Shown here: piece after piece, positions 42,768-62,535 of the stretch
Layout of the letters: every line of letters starts with the position of its first letter
How positions within the stretch are numbered: position 1 is the stretch's first letter
Origin: Maridesulfovibrio ferrireducens
GTDB lineage: Bacteria; Desulfobacterota; Desulfovibrionia; Desulfovibrionales; Desulfovibrionaceae
DNA: 64,000 nt
Assembly (NCBI RefSeq): GCF_016342405.1
Contig: NZ_JAEINN010000002.1
Location: 124,001-188,000, forward strand
Direction: 5' to 3'
Notes under the pieces: model-generated
The model's database searches: none
What the model was told of the DNA's origin: nothing
The model's input: only the letters and a program-made list of their open reading frames with translations
Position numbers and translations under genes: made by a program

Positions 42768-42844
42768 GGGCAATTAGCTCAGTTGGATAGAGTGTCAGCC
42801 TCCGGAGCTGAAGGTCGCAGGTTCGAATCTTGCATTGCCCACCA
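42768..42844 (+). tRNA. tRNA-Arg(CCG), prophage attachment site
   Basis: A 77-base gene: acceptor GGGCAAT / ATTGCCC, anticodon loop CTCCGGA with anticodon CCG, T loop TTCGAAT, encoded CCA. A phage integrase gene starts its stop codon only 62 bases downstream and points back at the tRNA, so the left attachment site of the prophage lies at this 3' end. The right copy must lie beyond the window. Confidence 0.96.
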
Positions 42845-42886: not shown

Positions 42887-42909
42887 GCTTTACTCACTGC
42901 TTTACTCAC
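42887..42909. repeat. Possible integrase arm-type sites
   Basis: The 11-mer GCTTTACTCAC occurs twice in tandem (42887-42897 and 42899-42909), 43 bases from the tRNA 3' end and at the end of int. Short direct repeats beside the core site are typical arm-binding sites of tyrosine recombinases. Confidence 0.45.
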
Positions 42910-44054
42910 CTTATTTTCAAGCCTTCGCTTTTGCGGAGGCTTTTTTTTTTGCCTTTTAGCGGAATAACTTTGCCTGTTCCGAACACTTCATCCAGTGCCA
43001 CTTTTACGCCTCTGATTGAATGAATATACCTTGCTGTGGTTTCCGGTGACTTATGGCGTAAGATTGCCTGAATATCCGCCATAGGGATCATTTTATTATC
43101 CAGAATAGAAGCGGTAAGGTGGCGGATAGCGTGAAAACCGAAAGGTTTTACCTCTGCTCGTTTACACATGCGCTCCATCATCTTGTTCACACTGGAATAG
43201 TTCCGGCCTGTTGCTGGATTCACGAATACATATTCCGTGAACGGGAAGTTAAGCTTTTGCCGGGCAAGATGTTTAATAAGTTCATCGTGCAGTATTTGAG
43301 TCATAGGAATCCAATCGTATTCAACACCGCCGTCACGCTTGGCAGTCCATAAACGTATTTTACGGGCTGAGAAGTCGAGATCTTCTTTTTTCAGATTCAG
43401 AATTTCGGATTTTCTACCCGCAGTATGCAGGAAGGTAAGCAGGAGCGTTTTTCGGTGCGGCTCCAAATGGTAAACGCCTGTTCTATGGCTTGAACCGTCC
43501 GGAACCTGATCGGCTATTTCGTAGAGCTTCCAGAAGTCGTCCTCTGTAGGGATATAGCGTGGATTTTTTATTTCCTTATACTTTTCTACTTTCCAAGGGC
43601 ATTCACCCTTAGTCAGTCCAGCCTTGCTACCCCATGCCCACATTCTAAGAATATGGCGGCGGTATCTGTTTGCCCTGTGCCCCGTTTTTATAGAGGCTAT
43701 TTTATCAAGGAATTTACGAACTGTTTCGTGATCCAGATTAACCGCAGGTTCAAACGGCTTTACTCCGGAAGCGTTAAGAAGCTCTTTAAGCACCATTTTT
43801 TTATCCAGAAACCAGCGGGGGCTGATCCCTTTGGCTACTTGCGCTTCAAGGTGTCTAGTGGTGAGACTGTGCAAGGAGATTGAAAGGGTCGGGGTCGCGG
43901 ATAATTCGCTCAACCTCTGCCTCATCATACATTCCCAATCCAAGGCTTCTTTCTTGGTCGAAGCTTTCTTTTCTTTCTGCTTTCCATTCGGCAAGGTTAT
44001 CCTTGCGAACCATTCCTTCTTCTGTGTGGTCTTGTTTTTTCGCTGTATTGGCAT
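42906..44054 (-). CDS. int: Phage tyrosine integrase
   Basis: A 382-residue site-specific recombinase. The N-terminal arm-binding part (WFARITLPNGKQKEKKA) is followed by a core-binding SAM-like region and the catalytic domain with Arg in HTAGRKSEIL (near 213), H-x-x-R in FHAIRHLTAS (near 305), and the nucleophile Tyr in TTARYIHSI (near 341). It points towards tRNA-Arg, its target. Its first 200 bases overlap the downstream half of the preceding gene in another frame. Confidence 0.95.
   Translation of the reverse strand: MPIQRKNKTTQKKEWFARITLPNGKQKEKKASTKKEALDWECMMRQRLSELSATPTLSISLHSLTTRHLEAQVAKGISPRWFLDKKMVLKELLNASGVKPFEPAVNLDHETVRKFLDKIASIKTGHRANRYRRHILRMWAWGSKAGLTKGECPWKVEKYKEIKNPRYIPTEDDFWKLYEIADQVPDGSSHRTGVYHLEPHRKTLLLTFLHTAGRKSEILNLKKEDLDFSARKIRLWTAKRDGGVEYDWIPMTQILHDELIKHLARQKLNFPFTEYVFVNPATGRNYSSVNKMMERMCKRAEVKPFGFHAIRHLTASILDNKMIPMADIQAILRHKSPETTARYIHSIRGVKVALDEVFGTGKVIPLKGKKKSLRKSEGLKIR
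42921..42950 (+). terminator. Terminator for tRNA-Arg inside the int 3' end
   Basis: On the plus strand GCCTTCGC / GCGGAGGC (one G-T pair) is followed by ten T. It lies within the antisense of the integrase C-terminal codons, so the prophage supplies the host tRNA with a replacement terminator. Confidence 0.7.
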
Positions 44055-52430: not shown

Positions 52431-53000
52431 ATGGTTGAAAAATTTCACAAATCGATAAATCAGGCGTGGGTTCAGTTCGGGCAGGAGAACTGGCAGATTT
52501 CGCGGCGGACCTTCTTTAATTACGTCGGGAAGAACAAACAGGTGAAGCCCATCGGCGGCAAATATTACGAAGACGATATTTCAGAACTTGCTCAGCAACT
52601 TGGCTGGGTTCCCATCGGTAAAAAGGTGGAAGCGGACCAGCCGGATGAGGAAGGATTAACTGGAGATTCGGCAAAGCGTTTTCAGGAAGCTAAAGCCAAG
52701 GACAAGGAATACGAAGCGGAGCTTAGACGGCTGAAACTTGAGCAGACACAAGGCAAGCTCATTGACCGTGAAAGCGTGGAAATGCTCATGGCTGGTAAAA
52801 CTTCGGTACTGGATACGGGCCTTCGCCAACTGTTTTTGATGAAAGGGCGTGAATTAATCCATGCTGTTGAAGGTAATCCGGAACATGAGGAAGCATTTAT
52901 CCAGCTTATGAATGATGAGCTTGACGAATTACTGAGCGAGTTTGCGCGTACTGATCAAATCACAATGGAGTTTGTAAGTGGAAGCCAGTTCGATAGTTAA
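52431..53000 (+). CDS. Terminase small subunit-like protein (Nu1 type)
   Basis: A 189-residue protein. The N-terminal part (WQISRRTFFNYVGKNKQVKP) is a winged-helix-like DNA binder, followed by a long charged coiled coil, as in lambda Nu1 relatives. Its end overlaps the terminase large-subunit start by 23 bases. It should recognise the packaging site and recruit the motor. Confidence 0.75.
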   Translation: MVEKFHKSINQAWVQFGQENWQISRRTFFNYVGKNKQVKPIGGKYYEDDISELAQQLGWVPIGKKVEADQPDEEGLTGDSAKRFQEAKAKDKEYEAELRRLKLEQTQGKLIDRESVEMLMAGKTSVLDTGLRQLFLMKGRELIHAVEGNPEHEEAFIQLMNDELDELLSEFARTDQITMEFVSGSQFDS

Positions 53001-54939
53001 AAATATGGTCGGAAAGCCGGTACTCGTTCCGGTAGGTCGTTTTTCATTGTCTCCGGAAATGATTGGGAAGCGGTTCACCTTTTCATTCAGCCGTGGTGAA
53101 AAGCAGATTTTGCGGAAGCGTAAAAAGATCAAGGTCAGCAAGTGGGCGGAGCAGTCGCGCATTCTGGTTCCTGAATCCAGTTCCTTACCGGGCATGTGGC
53201 GCAATGATGTAACGCCTTACCTTACCGATATAATGGATAGCCTTTTTCATAGCGGAGTTCAGACCGTTGTTGTTTGTGCCGCTCCGCAGGTTGGTAAAAC
53301 CGAAGTGCTGCTTAACGCGCTGGGCTATGCCGTGGATCGCGAACCGAGTCCGGCAATGATCATCTATCCCGATATGACAGCGGCGAAGGATTCGAGCAGG
53401 GATAGAGTTCTGCCCATGCTTAAAACTTCACCTAAACTATCCAAGTATCTGACTGGCTCAACGGATGATGAAGCATCACTCCGCATAAACTTGCGGCACA
53501 TGCCGATCTATATGGGCTGGGCGCACTCTGCATCCCGTCTGGCATCGAAGCCTATCCGGTATGTTTTCTTTGATGAGATTGATAAATATCCAACCACCGC
53601 AAACAAGAAAGAAGCTGATCCGCTCAGTTTGGCGGAAAAGCGCGGGCGTACTTATCGCAATCGCAAATTTTTGAAAATTTCCACACCGACAAATGAAAGC
53701 GGCCCTATCTGGACGGCTCTGAATATCGAAGCGCAAGTTGTATTCGGCTATAAGGTGCGTTGCCCGATCTGCGGGCATGAGCATGAAATGGATTTTGATC
53801 AAATCAAATGGCCGGAAAGAGAAACGGCTGATCCTTCCCAGCATGCCGAACGGGTCGAGGCTGAAAAGCTGGCGTGGTACGAATGCCCGAACATGGGTTG
53901 CAAGTGGGATGATGGAACACGGGATAAGGCCGTAAGTTTTGGCGCATGGTTCGATCGTGTGTCCGGCACTCCGCTTGAAGCTTACCTTAAATCGAAGCGG
54001 CCCAAGAAGATCGGTTTTCATATTCCTAGCTGGCTATCAAGATTCGTTTCCTTGTCCGAAGTAGCCGCCGCATTTTTGCGGGGTCAGAAGTCCGGCCTTA
54101 ATCCTGAATGGCGCGAAAAGCTGAAAGACTTCATGAACTCTCACAAGGCGGAACCGTGGGTTAACTATCAGCAGGAGCGCAGTGAAGATAAGATTCTTGC
54201 GCTTAAAGATGATCGTCCGCGCTTGCTTGTTCCCGGTGGTGATGTGGTGGCTTGTCTCACTGCCGCCATTGATACGCAGTCCGGCAGGGGCGGTTATTTT
54301 CCCTATGAAATCCGCGCGTGGGGTTACGGCATGGTGCATGAATCATGGCTGGTTGCTGATGGCGAAGTTGATAGCTTTGAAGCTTTGGCGGAAGTTTTGT
54401 GGGATCGGGAATACAAGGACGCAGAAGGCAACCCTTACCTTGTGCGGCTGGCTCTAATAGATGCAATGGGGCATCGGACAGATGAAGTTTACGATTTTTG
54501 CCGACTGAATCGGGGTCGAATTCTGCCGCTGAAAGGTGAGCAGACAATGGCCCGCCCGTTTTCATACAGTCAGATTGATATTTTCCCCGGTTCAAACAAG
54601 CCGATTCCCGGCGGCCTTAAGCTTTTGCGGGTGAATGTGACGCATTACAAGAACGCTTTATCCAACCGCCTTGCCATTAATCCCGCTGATCCGGGAGCGT
54701 ATCACCTGCACAGTGAAGTTTCGGATGCGTGGGCGCGGGAAATGACCGCTGAATACGTGAATGAAAAAGGGTTTTGGGAATGTCCGAAAGGAAGGCCCAA
54801 CCATGCATGGGATATCGCCGGATACAATCTTGCGGCTGCGGACCTGCTGGGCGTTAAGTCTTACAAGCAAGCGGGTATGAAGACCAAGAAGAAAGCTCCG
54901 AAAAAGAAAGTAAACCCTTACACTAACGGCGGTAGATAG
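52978..54939 (+). CDS. Terminase large subunit (GpA type)
   Basis: A 653-residue packaging motor of the lambda GpA family. The Walker A is APQVGKTE (102-109) and Walker B is VFFDEIDK (near 196), giving the ATPase; the C-terminal half carries the nuclease. Zinc-like CPICGHEHEMD lies near 262. It starts at GTG 52978 with GGAG 8 bases upstream. A deletion-scarred copy of this gene lies at 27765, showing that a relative was once integrated at tRNA-Ser. Confidence 0.93.
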   Translation: MEASSIVKNMVGKPVLVPVGRFSLSPEMIGKRFTFSFSRGEKQILRKRKKIKVSKWAEQSRILVPESSSLPGMWRNDVTPYLTDIMDSLFHSGVQTVVVCAAPQVGKTEVLLNALGYAVDREPSPAMIIYPDMTAAKDSSRDRVLPMLKTSPKLSKYLTGSTDDEASLRINLRHMPIYMGWAHSASRLASKPIRYVFFDEIDKYPTTANKKEADPLSLAEKRGRTYRNRKFLKISTPTNESGPIWTALNIEAQVVFGYKVRCPICGHEHEMDFDQIKWPERETADPSQHAERVEAEKLAWYECPNMGCKWDDGTRDKAVSFGAWFDRVSGTPLEAYLKSKRPKKIGFHIPSWLSRFVSLSEVAAAFLRGQKSGLNPEWREKLKDFMNSHKAEPWVNYQQERSEDKILALKDDRPRLLVPGGDVVACLTAAIDTQSGRGGYFPYEIRAWGYGMVHESWLVADGEVDSFEALAEVLWDREYKDAEGNPYLVRLALIDAMGHRTDEVYDFCRLNRGRILPLKGEQTMARPFSYSQIDIFPGSNKPIPGGLKLLRVNVTHYKNALSNRLAINPADPGAYHLHSEVSDAWAREMTAEYVNEKGFWECPKGRPNHAWDIAGYNLAAADLLGVKSYKQAGMKTKKKAPKKKVNPYTNGGR

Positions 54940-54940
54940 T

Positions 54941-55165
54941 ATGTCAGCCAAGTTAATAGCGGCGGCAATGGCTAAAGCGAAAGAGGGCGTGATATTCAGC
55001 CCTAAAGATGGCGCTGTGTGTCCGTGGTGCGGAGCTGTGAGGATTCCGGTTACTTCATCGCCTAAGTGGGATGGGGGGATTAAAGTTCGGTATCATAAGT
55101 GTAAGGAGCATGGTTGTTTGCTGGCTCAGATGGGGCAGGGGGTTAAGAGTATTCAGGGGGAATAG
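54941..55165 (+). CDS. Small zinc-ribbon phage protein
   Basis: A 74-residue protein starting one base after the terminase stop. A CPWC pair near residue 24 and CKEHGC near 53 probably hold a zinc. Its last 30 codons plus the following hairpin are repeated at 55711 beyond the toxin-antitoxin pair, and a third copy lies in the tRNA-Ser scar at 28418. Confidence 0.65.
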   Translation: MSAKLIAAAMAKAKEGVIFSPKDGAVCPWCGAVRIPVTSSPKWDGGIKVRYHKCKEHGCLLAQMGQGVKSIQGE

Positions 55166-55187
55166 GTAACCCCGCCGGAGCGGGGTA
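55070..55187 (+). repeat. Cargo-flanking direct repeat, copy 1
   Basis: The 3' end of the 74-aa gene from GATGGGG, plus its hairpin ACCCCGC / GCGGGGT. Repeated at 55711-55836 on the other side of brnTA. Confidence 0.8.
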
Positions 55188-55189
55188 TA

Positions 55190-55426
55190 TTAATGTTCTG
55201 CGGGGTGTTGTGAGTCTATGCGGTTTGCAATCCATGTTTTGATTACAGCCTGTCGGTTGACTCCCAGCCGTTTTGCTTCACGATCCAAAGCTATTATCAT
55301 CCATGCGGGGAAATCTACGTTTACCCGTTTAATGTCTTTATTCGGTCTGGTGGCTTTGGATAAGTCTAGTTGTTCAGTTATGTCCTGATCTGATTCAAAA
55401 GCTTCATCAAATTCTTTAGCTTTCAT
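55190..55426 (-). CDS. brnA: BrnA-type antitoxin, copy 2
   Basis: A 78-residue ribbon-helix-helix antitoxin, identical to the copy at 27897 except at two positions (an Ala-Lys versus Ala-Thr in REAKRL, and PAEH at the end). The start at 55426 lies inside the toxin gene's end and follows GGAGGTGG. It is in the prophage cargo block and opposite in direction to the late genes. Confidence 0.85.
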   Translation of the reverse strand: MKAKEFDEAFESDQDITEQLDLSKATRPNKDIKRVNVDFPAWMIIALDREAKRLGVNRQAVIKTWIANRIDSQHPAEH

Positions 55427-55676
55427 AAAGTTCCACCTCCTTTTTTCTGGAACGGCGCACTGATATAATGCGGGTAACTCCATTGCGTGGAGTTGTTACG
55501 GCTGACCAGTGTTTGCCGTTCATGATTCCAATAAAAAAAATACGGGGTTCGTCTTGAGTCCGTGCCGGAATTTTCAGCAAGTTTGGATCATTCCAAAGGG
55601 CTTGCGCCTGTTTGAAGTCAATCCCGTGTTTTTCTAAATTGGATGCACTTTTGTTTTCATCGTATTCAAACTGCAT
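55416..55676 (-). CDS. brnT: BrnT-type toxin, copy 2
   Basis: An 86-residue BrnT ribonuclease toxin with all family segments intact (FEYDENKSASNLEKHGIDF, RIFFIGIMNGKHWSAVTT, RRSRKKEVELYE). Five residues differ from the scar copy at 28123. With its antitoxin it forms a unit bracketed by repeats of a phage gene tail, so it looks like an inserted cassette that could stabilise the prophage or abort infection. Two near-identical pairs in one cell may cross-neutralise. Confidence 0.87.
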   Translation of the reverse strand: MQFEYDENKSASNLEKHGIDFKQAQALWNDPNLLKIPARTQDEPRIFFIGIMNGKHWSAVTTPRNGVTRIISVRRSRKKEVELYES

Positions 55677-55710: not shown

Positions 55711-55836
55711 GATGGGGTAGCGGGATTACGGTTCGGTATCATAAGTGTAAGGAGCATGGTTGTTTGCTTGCGGAGATGGGGCAGGGGGGTAAGAGTATTC
55801 AGAGGGAATAGACAACCCCGCCGGAGCGGGGTTGTC
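55711..55836 (+). repeat. Cargo-flanking direct repeat, copy 2 (gene fragment plus hairpin)
   Basis: A diverged copy of the 74-aa gene tail, starting at GATGGGG right after the brnT promoter region and ending in a perfect hairpin GACAACCCCGC / GCGGGGTTGTC. It is not an intact gene. Confidence 0.8.
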
Positions 55837-55845
55837 CTAGGGCTC

Positions 55846-56877
55846 TTATACATCTAAGCAAATAGACCAAAATTCTCTGGAATCTAAAGAGAATTTTTCT
55901 TCATGCTCTTCTTCAAAAATTCCAGCAAATTCTTCATAGTTCTCTTCCATAAAAATAGCTAATTCGTGGATTGCAGTCTCTGTTTTTTGTGCTTTAGGAC
56001 TCTCTTCATCAATGTGATATCCATCATTAGCTTCATATACAAGTGTCTTATCCAAAGCATCTTGTATCTGATATGCTTCATAATCTGCTGTTTTGTATGG
56101 AAGGTCTAAGCCTTTAGTATTGTAGTAAAAAACGTCACAAACGAATATACTAAATGAATTAAGTCGTTGTTTTACATTATCACATAACTTTTCAAACTGT
56201 TCTTTTTGAGGTAAAGCTTCAAATTCAATTCTTTTTACTTCGTCATTATTTTTAGCATTTTTTATTTGTTCAATTAGTTGACTCTGCATGTTGGTTTTGT
56301 CTTTTAAAACATCTACCCTGTTTTTATATGAATCTAAAGTCTCCTCTAGTTGGGAATACTTTTCTGGAGTTATCAAGGTTGGACTAGGGGTATCTGCAAT
56401 TATTTGCGGAATATCGGTTAGAAAATCTTTTAAATTGTCGTCCCATAGGGCCGCATCAAAAGCTTTAAGCTCTAGTTGTTTTATTATGCTATTGCAAACT
56501 TCACCTAGATCAGAACTTTCTGTAATATTAAGTAGTTGTGAGTTAGAAATAATTGATCCTAAATCACTAAAACTAAGGTCAGAAACTTTTAAAGGAATTA
56601 AATCATGTTTTTTCGCCCAAATGGCCCCCCATTCACATAAGCAAAATTGGCTTTTCAAATAATTGGAAGTTATCAACGCTATTGCAACTTTGGGTTCTTG
56701 TATCTCGTTATGAATTCTATTCATAAAATTTTCGCCTGGTCCAATTTTTGACCCAACCACTGACGTGCAAAAAAAATCATTACTAGACAGATTAAGACCA
56801 AGCTTTAAAAAAATCATTAAACGCTTAACAATTGCATGATCTGCACTAGCATGACTTACAAATATATCCTTACTCAT
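55846..56877 (-). CDS. TIR-domain protein
   Basis: A 343-residue protein with an N-terminal TIR domain (residues 1-135): DIFVSHASADHAIVKRL, then the second box GSKIGPGENFMNRIHNEI, then the catalytic Glu at 82 in FCLCEWGAIW. Bacterial TIRs of this kind cleave NAD or make signalling molecules and kill infected cells. The rest is helical with a coiled coil (about 165-210) and a unique acidic C-terminus that may sense infection. It is AT-rich, in the cargo block, downstream of an MltR/HEPN-type gene and a SWIM gene. Confidence 0.85.
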   Translation of the reverse strand: MSKDIFVSHASADHAIVKRLMIFLKLGLNLSSNDFFCTSVVGSKIGPGENFMNRIHNEIQEPKVAIALITSNYLKSQFCLCEWGAIWAKKHDLIPLKVSDLSFSDLGSIISNSQLLNITESSDLGEVCNSIIKQLELKAFDAALWDDNLKDFLTDIPQIIADTPSPTLITPEKYSQLEETLDSYKNRVDVLKDKTNMQSQLIEQIKNAKNNDEVKRIEFEALPQKEQFEKLCDNVKQRLNSFSIFVCDVFYYNTKGLDLPYKTADYEAYQIQDALDKTLVYEANDGYHIDEESPKAQKTETAIHELAIFMEENYEEFAGIFEEEHEEKFSLDSREFWSICLDV

Positions 56878-56900
56878 TTTAACCCTTTTCGTTGTTAGTT

Positions 56901-56960
56901 TTATTTCTGAACACCATCAGCCAAAATCCGAGCAACCCATTTCGTCCCAGCCGTAACCTG
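56901..56960 (-). pseudogene. Tail fragment of a second SWIM gene
   Basis: Between the MltR/HEPN stop and the TIR start, 20 codons read QVTAGTKWVARILADGVQK and stop, matching the C-terminus of the SWIM protein (LVTAEKKRFARVLGDGVKG) at 10 of 19 positions with the stop aligned. No upstream part of that gene remains. Confidence 0.65.
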
Positions 56961-56971
56961 CTTAGTCCGTC

Positions 56972-57565
56972 TTACGATGACCTGTCTTTAACTTTTAGTT
57001 TAATATTTTCAATAGATTCTTTGTATTTATCTAAATCAATTCCTCTCATTGGAGCTGATAAATAAAAAAGCATATTGGTTACAGACATAGCAAATATAAA
57101 TTTAAGCCGACTAACTGATACCTCTTCAGGATTCTTTGATGATTTCTTTTCAGCCTTATTTAACAAATCCCATACATTGGAATTTACATCAGCTAATGAT
57201 AGTCTCATAATTTCATCTTCAATATCATCAAGTGAAAAATTTGAATAATTATGGGCTGTACTATTACGTATCTTTTTTATTAAAGATAATTCATCATGCA
57301 CATCTTTGGGGATAAAACCAAGAGCATGGCAAGCAGTCATACGTTTATGGTATGAGTGTAAAGATTTTATAAACTCTTCTTTTACCGTTTTATTTGAATT
57401 GCATTTCTTTAATTCATATCGGAGTAGTTCTACCATAAAACTATCTAGTAAGGCTGTTGCAACAATGAAAACGCCTCTATCTGATTCTTGTAATAGTGTT
57501 TTAAACATTTCTTCATAGGCTTCAGTTGCAGGCTGGCCTTTGATATCAAATTTCATGTAGTTCAT
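56972..57565 (-). CDS. MltR/HEPN-type protein
   Basis: A 197-residue helical protein resembling the MltR family (ESDRGVFIVATALLDSFMVELLRYEL). It also carries R100-N-S-T-A-H105, the R-x4-H pattern of HEPN ribonucleases, in IKKIRNSTAHNYSNFSL. An RNA-cleaving toxin-like role is therefore possible. AAGGA precedes the ATG, three bases after the SWIM gene stop, so the two are co-translated. Confidence 0.65.
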   Translation of the reverse strand: MNYMKFDIKGQPATEAYEEMFKTLLQESDRGVFIVATALLDSFMVELLRYELKKCNSNKTVKEEFIKSLHSYHKRMTACHALGFIPKDVHDELSLIKKIRNSTAHNYSNFSLDDIEDEIMRLSLADVNSNVWDLLNKAEKKSSKNPEEVSVSRLKFIFAMSVTNMLFYLSAPMRGIDLDKYKESIENIKLKVKDRSS

Positions 57566-57568
57566 TTG

Positions 57569-57973
57569 CTATCCTTTCACTCCATCCCCCAAAACCCGCG
57601 CAAACCGCTTCTTCTCAGCCGTAACCAGCTTTGCAATCTTCTTCTTCTCAACTTCGAATTTTGCAAGCTTGGCTTCATACTCTTTCATGAGTTTATCAAG
57701 TCCGTACTGCGTTACCCATTTTAAAACATGGGCATACTCAGCCTCGCGCCCATTCATATATTCAGGATTCATGATTGAACTGTCACCCTTGATGAGAGCC
57801 GCTTTGTGCTTGCACATTTGACCTCGTGATCCGGCGGGGCAGTCACAAGAAACCATTAAGCCTTCACCGTCTTCGTATGCTTCGAAGGAAACAACATAGC
57901 CACTTCCGGTGCTACCAAGAACGTAAATCTGGATTATTTCTTCATCTTCTAAAAGTTCTTCAATTGTACTCAT
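57569..57973 (-). CDS. SWIM zinc-finger protein
   Basis: A 134-residue protein with a SWIM motif C43-x-C45-x8-C54-x-H56 (VSCDCPAGSRGQMCKHKAAL) and a long lysine-rich C-terminal helix. SWIM fingers bind DNA or proteins. The ATG at 57973 follows GAGGG and starts one base after the upstream stop. It is the middle gene of the cargo operon; a tail of a second SWIM gene lies two genes downstream. Confidence 0.75.
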   Translation of the reverse strand: MSTIEELLEDEEIIQIYVLGSTGSGYVVSFEAYEDGEGLMVSCDCPAGSRGQMCKHKAALIKGDSSIMNPEYMNGREAEYAHVLKWVTQYGLDKLMKEYEAKLAKFEVEKKKIAKLVTAEKKRFARVLGDGVKG

Positions 57974-57974
57974 T

Positions 57975-58610
57975 TTATCCCTCAATCAAGAATTTGATAA
58001 ATTCATCTTGGCTTAATGTCTTAAGTTCTATTTCATCGTTCTGGCTAAATTCAAAAGTCACTTTTCCTGAATACCTTTTGTGGTGGATTTTTTCTTTAGT
58101 TTCTCTATCGATAGTTGTGTACGCTGGCACTGCTTCATTTGCATCTTTTACAAGGATATATGTGGTGGATTTATCGGGCCATCCTTCAATCCGGATAGGA
58201 TTTTTATTGCCTTCAGAGTCGACTAATACATAAGCCGCAGGTGTCTTTTTAATTACGTCATTTTTCTTGAAGCAAAAGGCTGATGATTGAAACTCAATAT
58301 CTCTGGCAATACTTGTCATGCCTTTTTCATCAGGTTTGCACATTATCTTTTCTTTTTCAGTAAGTTCTTCATATTGCAAACGGGATGTTTCTTTTCCCAC
58401 TTTGCATCCAAGGCGATTGTGAAACCATTCAGGAACAGCAAACTCCCAGCCTCTAACAAAGTGGTAGTATTTAGGGCCATCTGGAAAATCAAAAAAAGGT
58501 ATATTCTTACTCTGTTTTGCTGTTTTACGTGGCGTTGAAACTAATTTGTCGAGTAATTTAAGGGCTTTTTGTTTAGATTCTAATCTATGTAGCTCAGAGA
58601 TATTATTCAT
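57975..58610 (-). CDS. Hypothetical protein, first gene of the cargo operon
   Basis: A 211-residue protein of no family I know. It is beta-rich with scattered aromatic residues (GPKYYHFVRGWEFAVPEWFHN) and ends in an acidic tail. GGAG lies 7 bases before the ATG. A promoter-like TTGAAA (58663-58668) and TATTAA (58640-58645), 17 bases apart, precede it. It may be a sensor or partner of the SWIM, HEPN and TIR proteins downstream. Confidence 0.55.
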   Translation of the reverse strand: MNNISELHRLESKQKALKLLDKLVSTPRKTAKQSKNIPFFDFPDGPKYYHFVRGWEFAVPEWFHNRLGCKVGKETSRLQYEELTEKEKIMCKPDEKGMTSIARDIEFQSSAFCFKKNDVIKKTPAAYVLVDSEGNKNPIRIEGWPDKSTTYILVKDANEAVPAYTTIDRETKEKIHHKRYSGKVTFEFSQNDEIELKTLSQDEFIKFLIEG

Positions 58611-58639
58611 TCATACACTCCATTATTTCTCTTAAGTAG

Positions 58640-58668
58640 TTAATAATTGGATTGCTATATTTTTTCAA
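58640..58668 (-). promoter_or_regulatory. Predicted promoter of the SWIM-HEPN-TIR operon
   Basis: Minus-strand TTGAAA and TATTAA with 17-base spacing, 30 bases before the first ATG. Confidence 0.45.
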
Positions 58669-58689
58669 CGTCTAAATATAATTCCTTGC

Positions 58690-58718
58690 TTGACAGTAGC
58701 TCTGTAGGTTTGTACGTA
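58690..58718 (+). promoter_or_regulatory. Predicted promoter of the ribbon-helix-helix gene
   Basis: TTGACA (58690-58695) and TACGTA (58713-58718) at 17-base spacing. The expected transcription start falls at or next to the ATG at 58726. Confidence 0.45.
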
Positions 58719-58725
58719 TGGGGTT

Positions 58726-58890
58726 ATGGAGAGAAAGCTTAAGTCAATCACAATCAAAGTGGATGAGGTAACGCACAGGAAGTACAAGGTGTACTTGGCT
58801 GAAATGGGATTAACCTTCAAAGATATTTTTAATGAGGAAATGGAAAGAAGAATAGCCGAAGCAGAAAAGCAAAAGAAAGAAGAAAAGTAG
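58726..58890 (+). CDS. Small ribbon-helix-helix-like protein
   Basis: A 54-residue protein (MERKLKSITIKVDEVTH at the start) with a beta strand followed by two helices (RKYKVYLAEMGLTFKDIFNEEMERRI), the pattern of ribbon-helix-helix DNA binders. It has only a weak ribosome site and its predicted promoter leaves almost no leader. It is divergent from the cargo operon and is its most likely repressor. Confidence 0.55.
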   Translation: MERKLKSITIKVDEVTHRKYKVYLAEMGLTFKDIFNEEMERRIAEAEKQKKEEK

Positions 58891-58970: not shown

Positions 58971-59483
58971 ATGGCTGGAAAGAACTTAGCCAATTCAAAC
59001 ACTTCTGACAACAGTTCAGTTGTCGGTTTCCCTACGCTTGTCATTACGAATGGTAGGCCTGTTGTTTCGTCCCTTACTGTTGCCGAGCATTTCGGAAAGC
59101 AGCACAAGAATGTTTTGCAATCCATTGAGCGGCTTGAAGTTCCAATACATTTTACTGAGCTGAATTTTCAGCCCAGTGAATATTTAGACAAGACTGGCCG
59201 TAAACTTCCCGCTTACAACATAACCCGTGACGGTTTCACCCTGCTAGTAATGGGCTTTACCGGAAAGAAGGCCATGCAATGGAAGATTCGCTATATCGAA
59301 GCTTTTAATGCAATGGAGCAGGAACTTTTGCGTGTGCGGAACAGGCCGCTAGAAAATAAAACTATAAAAGCAATCTCGGATTGCCTGATCCGTGACAATT
59401 CGGTGCATGCTTTTATTGAAGAAGCTTGCGAAGTAGCCTCATGGGGCAGGGTTTCAAAAACTGAGCTTTTCGAAAGCTATTAG
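58971..59483 (+). CDS. Rha-family phage regulatory protein (ends at an amber codon)
   Basis: A 170-residue protein with a Rha domain: PTLVITNGRPVVSSLTVAEHFGKQHKNVLQSIE and RDGFTLLVMGFTGKKAMQWKIRYIEAFNAME. Rha-type proteins act as antirepressors or block growth of competing phages. After it, residues from about 148 align with the primase C-terminus, and this match continues without a frameshift past the TAG at 59481-59483 to 59846. The gene therefore looks like a 291-residue protein with a single in-frame stop. GGAGG precedes the ATG. Confidence 0.85.
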   Translation: MAGKNLANSNTSDNSSVVGFPTLVITNGRPVVSSLTVAEHFGKQHKNVLQSIERLEVPIHFTELNFQPSEYLDKTGRKLPAYNITRDGFTLLVMGFTGKKAMQWKIRYIEAFNAMEQELLRVRNRPLENKTIKAISDCLIRDNSVHAFIEEACEVASWGRVSKTELFESY

Positions 59484-59846
59484 ACTTATTGCAAACGCAC
59501 ACAATGCCGTTCTGTGCATCGTGCAAGATTTTTTACCGACCTTTACGCCATGATAAGAAGCGTTAAGGAAACCCGCCCTCGTGTAAAGGGAGCGCGGCCC
59601 CGTATGCTTTTGGGCATTGCTCCATACAATCAGCTTCCGGCAGGATCGGAGCCGTTAGAGCTTCCAGTGTCCGCAAATCATGATTACAGCCTGAATTCTC
59701 CAGAATCCTGCATTGCCACCGCAAAAGAACTCCTGCTTAAAAACCTGTCCAGCCTCCCAAGGTCGGAAAGACAAGCCATGCTTTTAGCTTATGATGCCCT
59801 GATCGAAGCGGAACAGGGGCTTTGTGCGGAGGTGCGTCATGCTTAA
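59484..59846 (+). pseudogene. Downstream half of the Rha/Pox_D5 fusion after the amber codon
   Basis: Same frame as the Rha gene. It contains FFTDLYAMIRSVKETRPRVKGARPRMLLGI, closely matching the primase C-terminus FFRELYSAVKTLRETRPRV. No convincing start with a ribosome site exists inside it, so it is expressed only by readthrough or suppression, or not at all. A leucine-rich stretch follows before its stop inside the next gene. Confidence 0.7.
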
Positions 59847-60103: not shown

Positions 60104-60132
60104 AGAAGCCCCGCTTTAGCGTGGGGCTTTAC
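60104..60132. terminator. Terminator between the 79-aa gene and the membrane-protein gene
   Basis: The stem AAGCCCCGC / GCGTGGGGCTT has one bulge and lies between convergent genes. Confidence 0.65.
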
Positions 60133-60686
60133 TTTGTCCTGTTATCAACCGTCTGCGTGCTATATGTAGAGTTATCTATTTTATTTTCTATAGCAGTGTT
60201 ATTCTTTGAAGATTCAACTTCTTTTGGATTAAAATGTGCGAGGTATGCAATATAAAATGCACCTATGGTAAAAAACAGGGTAAGAGTCGATACAATTGTG
60301 TGTTTCGTAAATTGATACGATATCCACCGACATACAACGTTAAATGTTTTTTGAAATAAGTTTTCATGAAATAATTCAACTTCTTTTATTGATGAATTAA
60401 GAAAGATTTGAGCTTCTTTTAAGCCTTTCAAATAGGCTGTCTTTTTTTGTTCATGGCTTCTAGTTATAGAGTCCTCAGTAACAACGCCCCAGCAACTATA
60501 TAATGCCCAAAAATCAATTTCTTGGAACTGTTCTAATCTTTTAGGGTTGTCTTTAAAAATATTTTCGATAACTCTGCTAGTGTCTTCATACCAAGTTTTA
60601 AAATCTTCTTCCATTTCTTGATTAGATAATTGAGAAATACTTTTAAGTTGATTCTTTAATATTGAAATTGCTTTGTGTTTATTCAT
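60129..60686 (-). CDS. Tail-anchored membrane protein of the cargo block
   Basis: A 185-residue protein. The N-terminal 110 residues are helical (FKTWYEDTSRVIENIFKDNPKRLEQF), a pattern also seen at the N-terminus of some abortive-infection effectors. One membrane helix (about 133-152, HTIVSTLTLFFTIGAFYIAYLAHF) precedes a short polar tail. It is AT-rich, opposite to the late genes and isolated, all typical of a lysogenic-conversion gene. A role in exclusion is inferred only. Confidence 0.55.
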   Translation of the reverse strand: MNKHKAISILKNQLKSISQLSNQEMEEDFKTWYEDTSRVIENIFKDNPKRLEQFQEIDFWALYSCWGVVTEDSITRSHEQKKTAYLKGLKEAQIFLNSSIKEVELFHENLFQKTFNVVCRWISYQFTKHTIVSTLTLFFTIGAFYIAYLAHFNPKEVESSKNNTAIENKIDNSTYSTQTVDNRTK

Positions 60687-60806
60687 GGTTATACATGGGG
60701 TGTTGGTTGTTTTTTACTTGTAATTAGGCAAGGAATAATCTTTTATTGTTAAGATTTCAATCAGTAAATTTTACTCCCCAGTAAACAACCCCATTCCAAA
60801 ATAACC

Positions 60807-60864
60807 ACCTCGATTGTTATGATTGTCCCAACTTGAAGGACAACCATAATAATCGAGGTTTTTT
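60807..60864 (+). promoter_or_regulatory. Long hairpin with T run directly before the gpW-like gene
   Basis: A 22-bp stem (60807-60828 with 60838-60859; one G-T pair, one mismatch) with a 9-base loop is followed by six T and then the ATG at 60866. The ribosome site (CGAGG) lies in the 3' arm. It can work as a terminator or sequester the site. Confidence 0.65.
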
Positions 60865-60865
60865 A

Positions 60866-61075
60866 ATGCTCCAGAAACGGCTGGACTCTCTAAATAAGGC
60901 AATCGAAGCAATTGAAGGCGGCGCACAGTCCTATACCTTGAATGGTCGGACTCTCACCCGTGGTTCTTTGCAGTCGCTTTATTCTGAGCGGGACAAAGTG
61001 GAAATGCGCCTTGCTTTTGCTGGTAACGGCGGCAAGGGATTCATTGCCCGTGCTTCGTTTCGGGGGCGTAGATGA
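60866..61075 (+). CDS. Head-tail connector protein, gpW-like
   Basis: A 69-residue protein (MLQKRLDSLNKAIEAIEGG at the start, then SYTLNGRTLTRGSLQSLYSERDKVEM) with the size, fold pattern and position of lambda gpW, immediately upstream of the portal gene; the stop overlaps the portal start (ATGA). It completes the head before tail joining. Confidence 0.75.
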   Translation: MLQKRLDSLNKAIEAIEGGAQSYTLNGRTLTRGSLQSLYSERDKVEMRLAFAGNGGKGFIARASFRGRR

Positions 61076-62535
61076 ACGTCTATAATGGCTGGACTTCTTT
61101 TGTTGCTCAGTGTGTAGGTGCTTTTTCGCCGGATGCTGCTGCAAGCTGGTGCCGTAGCCGTGCGAATCTTTCTGCTTACTCTGCGGCTTCCCGTCGTGGT
61201 CCCAATTCTAACTGGCGACCAACCAACCGCAGTGCCGATAACCTTTCCCGTCATGAACATGCTTTGATTGTGGCCCGTGCGCGTGATCTGGTTCGCAACT
61301 CTACTCATGTTTCCGGTGCGCTGGAGCGCATAGCAAACAACGTGGTTTATACCGGAATCAAACCGCAGGCCGCACAGCTCAATGCTGATGGTGATCTTGA
61401 CCACGCATTTAACCGTAAAATCGAACAGCATTATAAAGACTGGTCGGAAGCGGATGAAGTTGGTTTTGAAGATAAGCAACGGCTTATTATGAATCACCTT
61501 TGGCAGGATGGAGAATGCCTTCTCCGTTACTATCCTGATCCTGATTTGATGAAGCAGGGGCTTGCGCCTTTAGGTGTTGAACTTCTGGAATGTGACCACT
61601 TGGACAGCTCCGTTGATGGTCCTTTAGAAGGTGGCGGCTATGCCATGCGGGGTGTTGAGTTCAACCGTAAAGGGCATCCTGTCGCTTATCATCTATTCAG
61701 TGAACACCCCGGTGATATGCGCCGCTTGATGAGCCGCGAATCTGTTCGAGTTTCGGCTCAGTGGGTGCGCCATATATTCCGGCCTATTCGCTCCAGCCAG
61801 AACCGTGGCATTTCGTGGATGGCTCCGGTTGTTATGGAAATGCGCGATTTCAGTGAATTTCAGGACTCGCACCGTATTGTTGCACGGCTGATGGCGGCTT
61901 TCGGATTCTTTGTTGAAACTCCTTATGCCGAAATGGTGAATCCACTCGGTGGCGAAATGGGTGATCAGTCCGAAGGCGTGGACGGGTACATTCCCGACTA
62001 CGTTGAACCGGGCCAGATTGTGACCCTGCCGCAAGGTACTAAAGTTCACGAAGCCCAATTTCAGCACCCCGGCCCGACCTATGAACCGTATGTAAAAACA
62101 AGCTTGCGCGGTTCTTCCACTGGTTTCGGCATGTCTTACGAAGCCTTTTCAAACGATTATTCAGATGCCTCCTTTGCGTCCGCTCGTTCCGCCACTCTGG
62201 AAGAACGGCGCGGCTATCGCGTTCAGCAAAATCTTCTAGGTCGTAAGGGCATTATGCCAACTTGGAAAATGTTCTGCCGGATGCTTTGGCTGGGCGGGCT
62301 TGAGCCTTTAATGACTGGCCCGAGTGTTCCGGCAAGTTGTCAGTTCCCCGGTTGGCCTTGGGTTGATCCTATGAAGGATGCCAAGTCCGCAGACATGATG
62401 CTGTCTATGGGATGCACAACGCGCCGCAAAATATGCGCGGAGCGGGGCGAAGATTATGATGAAGTTGTTGAACAGTTGGCCCGTGAAAATGACGACCTCA
62501 AGAAACGGGGACTGATGGAGAACAAAAGTGAATAA
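61072..62535 (+). CDS. Phage portal protein (lambda type)
   Basis: A 487-residue portal forming the twelve-subunit ring through which DNA enters the head. Family segments are RARDLVRNSTHVSGALERIANNVV, QDGECLLRYYPDP, LLECDHLDS and RPIRSSQNRGISWMAPVVMEMRDFSEFQDS. It starts by four-base overlap with gpW and is followed by the protease/capsid gene, overlapping it by eight bases. Confidence 0.92.
   Translation: MNVYNGWTSFVAQCVGAFSPDAAASWCRSRANLSAYSAASRRGPNSNWRPTNRSADNLSRHEHALIVARARDLVRNSTHVSGALERIANNVVYTGIKPQAAQLNADGDLDHAFNRKIEQHYKDWSEADEVGFEDKQRLIMNHLWQDGECLLRYYPDPDLMKQGLAPLGVELLECDHLDSSVDGPLEGGGYAMRGVEFNRKGHPVAYHLFSEHPGDMRRLMSRESVRVSAQWVRHIFRPIRSSQNRGISWMAPVVMEMRDFSEFQDSHRIVARLMAAFGFFVETPYAEMVNPLGGEMGDQSEGVDGYIPDYVEPGQIVTLPQGTKVHEAQFQHPGPTYEPYVKTSLRGSSTGFGMSYEAFSNDYSDASFASARSATLEERRGYRVQQNLLGRKGIMPTWKMFCRMLWLGGLEPLMTGPSVPASCQFPGWPWVDPMKDAKSADMMLSMGCTTRRKICAERGEDYDEVVEQLARENDDLKKRGLMENKSE

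Follow-up and report, generated by a model that had tools for sequence, protein, structure and literature searches.

A TIR, HEPN and SWIM gene block in a Maridesulfovibrio prophage is probably a stack of separate passengers in a defence-type hotspot

Do four adjacent genes of a Maridesulfovibrio ferrireducens prophage, encoding a protein of unknown fold, a SWIM zinc-finger protein, a HEPN protein and a TIR protein, form one defence operon, or are they neighbours of separate origin? Together with a divergent ribbon-helix-helix (RHH) gene they occupy positions 55846 to 58890 of a 64,000-nucleotide stretch of contig NZ_JAEINN010000002.1 (positions 124,001 to 188,000, forward strand), referred to here as the window. 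An initial annotation, made from the letters alone, had proposed a single new defence system with the RHH protein as its probable regulator. Our comparisons indicate instead that the block is probably a stack of separately acquired passengers in a prophage defence-type hotspot, which runs from the terminase and an Ogr/Delta-like gene to the adaptor and portal genes. We prefer this reading because contents turn over between constant borders, because known defence-type genes are present in two related slots, and because the HEPN, TIR and SWIM genes are distributed independently of one another.

The block consists of genes for the 211-residue protein of unknown fold (57975..58610), the 134-residue SWIM protein with its CxC...CxH pattern (57569..57973), an MtlR-family HEPN protein (56972..57565) and a 343-residue TIR protein with an N-terminal TIR domain and a conserved C-terminal extension (55846..56877), all on the minus strand. 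Judged by sequence likeness these are not chance open reading frames (ORFs), since each has protein relatives elsewhere. The first two genes are separated by 1 base, counting from the SWIM ATG (the longest SWIM ORF has a TTG start 12 bases upstream of it and would overlap the 211-residue gene), the SWIM and HEPN genes by 3 bases, and the HEPN and TIR genes by 94. Among Pfam matches, that of the TIR protein to TIR_2 exceeds its cut-off (E 2.3e-12), while those to SWIM (E 0.0015, just under), DUF4145 (E 0.0005), HepT-like (E 0.0013) and RHH_10 (E 0.0059) fall under theirs. A scan for promoters and terminators found 13 promoter-like sites (15.2 expected) and 7 sites resembling terminators (5.2 expected), counts that speak neither for nor against a separate TIR promoter. 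On re-checking, the coordinates, strands, gaps and motifs of the initial annotation all held, as did its picture of an A+T-rich block opposing the late genes in the packaging-head interval: the block has 35% G+C, compared with 51% in the terminase gene, 52% in the portal gene and 47% in the rha group, and it lies between terminase and portal on the strand opposite to both. A search of E. coli genomes with the block gave no match.

One line of evidence comes from sister prophages. Terminase relatives at E ≤1e-30 occur in 28 of the 98 genomes of our sample of relatives, and among those 28 we examined the slot, defined as the interval separating the zinc-finger gene from the adaptor gene, in seven genomes of the same genus and in G018, from another genus of the same family; the contigs of G053 and G051 end near the terminase (G and L numbers are our handles for genomes and loci). 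A common flanking frame is found in seven of 17 same-genus genomes, M. ferrireducens included, with terminases 83-100% identical (83-98% in the six sisters). On the left side of the window's slot, the plus-strand gene for the terminase large subunit (52978..54939, PHROG E 5.9e-144) is followed by that of a 74-residue zinc-finger protein (54941..55165, plus strand), which forms the left border and shares 45% identity with a protein encoded on contig L135; the window's protein has no Pfam or PHROG match, and its L135 homologue matches Ogr/Delta at E 3e-5, slightly under the cut-off. The right border is the head-tail adaptor gene (60833..61075, plus strand, PHROG E 2.2e-10), followed by the portal protein gene (61072..62535, plus strand, PHROG E 2.2e-91). 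It is accompanied by a region with a long inverted repeat (60762..60857, plus strand), to which similar sequence is present in all seven prophages, 97-100% identical in four of the others and more diverged in G015 and G016.

Within this frame the slot measures 5.7 kilobases (kb) in the window, 6.1 in G008, 5.1 in G006, 4.9 in G012, 6.4 in G014, 7.8 in G015 and 6.1 in G016, and its contents change from one prophage to the next. In G008 the slot contains a BrnT/BrnA toxin-antitoxin pair, the 211-residue gene, a BRCT-domain protein and two proteins of 228 and 453 residues. G006 combines a PtuA-like ATPase and its HNH partner with a protein of 358 residues, G012 has a repeat protein of 802 residues and another protein of 275 residues, and G014 carries, among others, a BrnT/BrnA pair, a BRCT-type protein and a 234-residue DUF4145/Csm6-like protein. 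In G015 we found a leucine-rich-repeat protein, a BrnT/BrnA-like pair, a BRCT-type protein and a 415-residue protein, and in G016 a BRCT-type protein with proteins of 431 and 459 residues. The SWIM, HEPN and TIR genes are present in none of the six sisters, and the 211-residue gene in one (G008, 78% identical). BrnT/BrnA pairs occur in three of the six as well as in the window, that of G015 being 51-54% identical. The G006 ATPase matches PtuA at E 1.5e-201 and, as its best match, the candidate family PDC-M01A at E 1.1e-210; its HNH partner matches the candidate family PDC-M01B at E 2.1e-102.

Two further loci extend the comparison. G018 has, between its terminase and portal genes, a GmrSD-type gene (Pfam E 8.4e-33) together with a toxin-antitoxin pair of the Phd/ParE type; a search of this genome did not find the zinc-finger border gene, and this is therefore the same position, not proven to be the same border. 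In contig L135, whose terminase is 53% identical, the zinc-finger, adaptor and portal genes are consecutive with 129 bp between the first two, as expected of an empty site. Thus eight of the nine slots examined are filled and one is empty, and two (G006 and G018) match a named defence type. The tally of slots excludes L133, L134, L136, L137 and L138, which do not match both border genes, and contig L132, whose cargo is shared with G014, was not treated as an independent case. A BRCT-type gene is among the cargo of four of the seven slots (L012:6364-7365, L065, L066, L067), in two long and two short forms, each short form being followed by a different small gene; the BRCT assignment was made by Pfam for the G008 copy only, the other copies being alike by eye.

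Do the genes keep company with one another elsewhere? We assembled 40 loci with HEPN relatives (33 from IMG/VR, two genomes, two phage records and three further genomes), which are not all independent: L020 and L086 hold the same gene by score, L100 and L101 are alike, and several loci are short on one side. This count leaves out a broken relative in G161 and the phage record H27, which gave the same values as H26. The 17 TIR loci comprise 3 plasmids (of 22 plasmid records), 5 genomes, 9 IMG/VR contigs and none of 3 phage records, and the five SWIM loci come from four of eight other genomes plus L120. Profiles detected no TIR or SWIM gene in the flanks of the 40 HEPN loci, no HEPN or SWIM gene in the flanks of the 17 TIR loci, and no other block gene in the flanks of the five SWIM loci. 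Neighbours of the HEPN gene vary and include Abi_alpha (G203) and a SIR2-like gene (G234), with structural, regulatory and methylase genes in phages. Pfam and PHROG scans of 125 HEPN neighbours returned no TIR among the best 25 of 54 and the best 25 of 158 families, respectively, a result in which a weak single TIR match could hide. One genome, G503, has one HEPN and one TIR relative, on different contigs. Conservation of the four genes together across genomes, the comparison the initial annotation had itself proposed, was examined in sister prophages and in all three sets of loci, and it points to independent cargo: the genes recur together in 0 of 6 sister prophages, 0 of 40 HEPN, 0 of 17 TIR and 0 of 5 SWIM loci, the outcome named in that annotation as speaking against a single four-gene operon.

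The RHH gene (58726..58890, plus strand) tells a similar story. In five of the seven prophages (window, G008, G012, G014 and G015), four of which lack SWIM, HEPN and TIR genes, it or a relative immediately precedes an rha-type gene in the same orientation; G006 and G016 have neither the RHH gene nor, in the same search, an N-terminal rha part. Because it accompanies rha whatever the cargo, gene order assigns the RHH protein to the rha gene group, which it regulates or to which it belongs, and it no longer stands as the block's probable regulator, although it could still act on the divergent promoter. The N-terminal part of the window's Rha-type phage regulator is encoded at 58971..59483 (plus strand, Pfam E 1.5e-33) and a separate ORF follows at 59514-59846, so that rha is split in two here (58971-59846); G008, G012 and G014 have single long rha frames.

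Adjacency, a common strand, the TIR and HEPN domains and the A+T-rich composition are what a single operon of all four genes with an RHH regulator would have in its favour. With no co-occurrence in any locus examined and an RHH gene that tracks rha, that proposal is already largely refuted, and we consider it very improbable. The initial interpretation stands in part: its defence-type prophage cargo, the TIR glutamate, the R-x4-H motif of the HEPN protein and the want of a named system with this gene set, of which we found none in the defence and domain libraries or in the open-licence literature searched, are all retained, and the single operon and the membership of the RHH protein are not.

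If the genes arrived separately, traces of their arrival might be visible, and several were found. The 3′ end of the zinc-finger gene, with the hairpin that follows it (55067..55186, plus strand), recurs after the BrnT/BrnA genes (55713..55832, plus strand) with 90% identity over 120 bp. The BrnT/BrnA pair between these repeats (55190..55676, minus strand; BrnT Pfam E 1.5e-25, BrnA NCBIfam E 8.3e-34) is a separate cassette. Five of the seven prophages (the window, G006, G008, G015, in which there are two, and G016) have partial copies of the end of this Ogr-like gene within the slot; G012 and G014 have none. Three border copies in G015 enclose two cassettes in series, the first two copies in G006 and G016 enclose only a small ORF, and in G016 the right-border inverted repeat is found at both ends of the gene for the 459-residue protein.

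A second kind of trace lies within the block itself. Between the HEPN and TIR genes, 53 bp (56911..56963, minus strand) are 79% identical to the end of the SWIM gene (57579-57631; self-comparison E 1e-6), with a local score of 64, where 500 plain shuffles reached at most 43. One frame of this fossil can be translated as a divergent SWIM C-terminus that closes with a stop codon. A SWIM-type gene therefore probably once preceded the TIR gene, with the HEPN gene now in between, and because the fossil of a SWIM gene end lies between HEPN and TIR, it constitutes evidence that suggests stepwise assembly of the block. The fossil is also compatible with an older SWIM-TIR neighbourhood. A bolder extension, which we regard as doubtful though worth stating, is that the hotspot works as an array of cassettes with no integrase dedicated to it, in which border copies carried by the cargo serve as landing sites for recombination between phages and for serial addition of cassettes. 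The border copies would be the 3′ ends of the Ogr-like gene, some with the hairpin, and in one case the right-border inverted repeat; the three copies and two cassettes of G015 would represent serial addition, and the SWIM-end fossil would be a product of that process within the array.

The SWIM and 211-residue proteins have few relatives. SWIM relatives were found in nine of 199 family genomes, M. ferrireducens included, and none in the phages and plasmids searched; the Cys and His residues of the CxC...CxH pattern are invariant in a five-sequence alignment. In the four genomes examined, the SWIM gene is preceded on the same strand by a gene for a protein of 168-206 residues, which in three of them matches phage repressor or regulator families and in the fourth only a family of unassigned function; SWIM genes may thus be co-expressed during lysogeny. 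In other family prophages, the SWIM relatives L071, L073 and L074 each come immediately behind a repressor-like gene. The 211-residue protein was detected in two of the 98 relatives and in one of 297 genomes of the phylum, its own included in each case, and no relatives were found in plasmids, phages or IMG/VR contigs (single query and two-row alignment) or in genome contigs, with scans that reach mainly close relatives. Its best match in four libraries had E 0.078, a profile search of solved structures gave nothing under E 0.4, and a structure model built from two sequences, with a mean pLDDT (predicted local distance difference test) of 30, was unusable.

Could these two proteins and the HEPN protein form a three-gene system, in which SWIM and the 211-residue protein either sense or restrain the HEPN ribonuclease and the TIR protein stands apart? 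Their close spacing on a single strand, 1 and 3 bases, agrees with such an arrangement, as does a distant SWIM protein of G020 with a long C-terminal part that ends like the 211-residue protein (9 of 20 residues identical, two-sequence E 0.003). However, the 211-residue gene occurs in G008, where SWIM and HEPN are absent, the 40 HEPN loci contain no SWIM profile match, three of the four SWIM relatives examined follow repressor-like genes instead, and the fossil suggests that the HEPN gene arrived later, between a SWIM gene end and TIR. Taken together, these points make a three-gene system unlikely, and we return to separate passengers as the better description of the block.

What might the individual passengers do? 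Judged by its domain matches, the TIR protein is most likely a single-gene abortive-infection protein that cleaves nicotinamide adenine dinucleotide (NAD), akin to SpbK. SpbK is a TIR NADase, and phage portal rings cluster and activate its TIR domains (PMC12847820). The TIR domain of the window protein matches SpbK clearly (PDB 9phb, E 2.5e-23; PADLOC spbK, E 6.6e-23), with positions 149-306 of the spbK model aligned to its residues 3-157, and a structure-profile search agrees. The catalytic glutamate noted in the initial annotation, E82, is present and is aligned in 17 of 17 relatives, one of the two patterns used for IMG/VR retrieval including this residue. Plasmids of Agrobacterium, Mesorhizobium and Rhodococcus encode full-length relatives of 338-358 residues that have neither HEPN nor SWIM genes as neighbours. 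The difference from SpbK is one of architecture: the window's TIR domain is N-terminal and an extension follows it towards the C-terminus, but in SpbK the part that was matched (residues 138-290) lies behind a portal-binding N-terminal domain. Membership in SpbK was rejected on this reversed domain order, there being no N-terminal sensor ahead of a C-terminal TIR domain. Thoeris was also rejected, as no ThsA match was present among the eight other slot proteins scanned; the TIR protein matches ThsB models weakly (E 0.006 and 0.019). In two close TIR relatives (L125:5904-9627 and L126:1486-5259) a large gene, of 873 and 891 residues respectively, lies 18-22 bases upstream on the same strand; the two are mutually dissimilar and are possibly partner genes in those loci.

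The HEPN protein, which the initial annotation had described as an MltR/HEPN-type protein with R-x4-H, has the motif R100-N-x2-A-H105 and is most likely, from profile and fold, an MtlR-family ribonuclease with an intact R-x4-6-H motif. Its profile matches the solved structures MtlR 3brj (E 1.8e-7), 6kcr and HepS 9oij (E 0.001). A structure model (mean pLDDT 82), for which 25 of the 33 IMG/VR sequences were aligned, gave MtlR/YggD and HepS chains as its twelve best Foldseek matches, with weak E values (best 0.009, probability 1.00). The window protein alone has no Pfam MtlR match, and its relative L128 passes the Pfam MtlR cut-off. A single-query search found no match in IMG/VR and none in plasmids. 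RNxxAH is present in all seven relatives retrieved without the use of that motif; its presence in the 33 IMG/VR loci was not counted as evidence, as the search pattern contained it. Fold and profile thus resemble the MtlR family and HepS of the Salmonella Gifsy-1 prophage (PDB 9oij); the differences are that the window's protein is encoded by a phage gene outside a mannitol operon and keeps R-x4-H, which the aligned Vibrio MtlR lacks. Its closest relative (46%, in G203; L016:7592-9973) overlaps a gene for a 370-residue protein with RNEMSH, followed by an Abi_alpha gene, possibly a chromosomal defence unit.

These likenesses admit a reading without defence, in which the cargo consists of neutral or regulatory morons kept by drift and the HEPN protein is an MtlR-like regulator and not a nuclease. 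The best solved relatives of the HEPN protein are indeed MtlR regulators, many cargo proteins match nothing, and according to PMC3710099 a large share of MtlR members is likely to be inactive. The same paper, however, also predicts some MtlR members to be active RNases, R-x4-H is kept here, and PtuA-like and GmrSD-type genes occupy related slots. We therefore rate cargo without a defence role as quite unlikely and retain the defence-type hotspot.

Comparison of sequences across prophages and loci shows constant borders, cargo turnover and an independent distribution of HEPN, TIR and SWIM; that the genes act singly to protect the lysogen is what we infer from it. Phage material would cluster the TIR protein through its C-terminal part, NAD would be destroyed and the infection aborted; by analogy with SpbK, a phage structural protein is a plausible trigger. 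The HEPN protein would cut RNA once triggered, and the SWIM and 211-residue proteins would be accessory passengers of lysogeny.

Several observations weigh against this account. The C-terminal part of the TIR protein as sensor is a guess, and since same-strand genes precede 13 of the 17 TIR relatives, single-gene action of TIR is something we only infer; that no two of these 13 genes are similar at E 1e-3 counts in favour of separate passengers. The upstream gene lies within 35 bases in four relatives (L023, L119, L125 and L126) and overlaps in L113, and L111 and L115, both IMG/VR loci, share a gene downstream of TIR that is similar by eye. The flank profiles for TIR and SWIM were built from 4 and 5 sequences, respectively, and the CxC...CxH pattern, used on its own, hit two short ORFs (65 and 47 residues) in the HEPN loci L105 and L016. 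Only two of nine slots match a named defence type, most cargo being of no assigned function. Finally, the gaps of 1 and 3 bases mean that the 211-residue, SWIM and HEPN genes may be co-transcribed and could cooperate.

The surroundings of the hotspot complete the picture. The window holds a prophage that starts near a tRNA-Arg gene (42768..42844, plus strand, ARAGORN), its probable attachment site judging from position, and an integrase gene (42906-44054, minus strand, PHROG E 2.8e-41). To the right of rha is a second cargo position with a gene of 30% G+C (60129..60686, minus strand) for a 185-residue protein that matches the candidate defence family PDC-S35 (PADLOC E 8.2e-8), with a hydrophobic segment near residue 131 by hydropathy. 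Residues 1-59 of this protein resemble the N-terminal portion of a TIR protein encoded on an IMG/VR contig (L117:5644-6483; 27%, E 1.7e-5 in a three-protein comparison), and the same likeness extends to L113:3584-4561 at E 0.03. A hydrophobic segment in place of TIR would possibly represent an effector swap on one sensor.

In place of a tempting but unsupported four-gene system, these results put a hotspot of familiar kind, carried by prophages of a Desulfovibrio-type group. Slots like this supply candidate defences, here an N-terminal TIR protein, an MtlR-type HEPN protein with an intact motif and about twenty ORFs without assigned function in the sister slots, and the duplicated borders and the gene-end fossil make the route of cargo gain directly testable. 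Named systems are represented in the slots in part. G006, outside the window, has a PtuA-like ATPase and an HNH protein as in Septu, with the difference that the HNH partner matches the candidate family PDC-M01B and that PtuB is absent among its best 25 matches. BrnT/BrnA, shared with three sisters, is a cassette outside the proposed four-gene set. Prophage and satellite slots with a high turnover of defence genes are already known from P2-like and P4-like elements; as PMC9122126 describes them, these are likewise small loci between two constant phage genes that hold Septu, TIR, HEPN and other genes, and the P2 slot also borders the portal gene. For the interval between terminase and head-tail adaptor, or for the four-gene set, no description was found in the open-licence literature searched. 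The present hotspot, known from sequence alone, differs from the P2-like and P4-like ones in phage type, host family and border genes (terminase and zinc-finger gene on one side, head-tail adaptor on the other) and in the partial border copies among its cassettes; what is new here is this hotspot with its duplicated borders, the part we least expected, and not a four-gene system.

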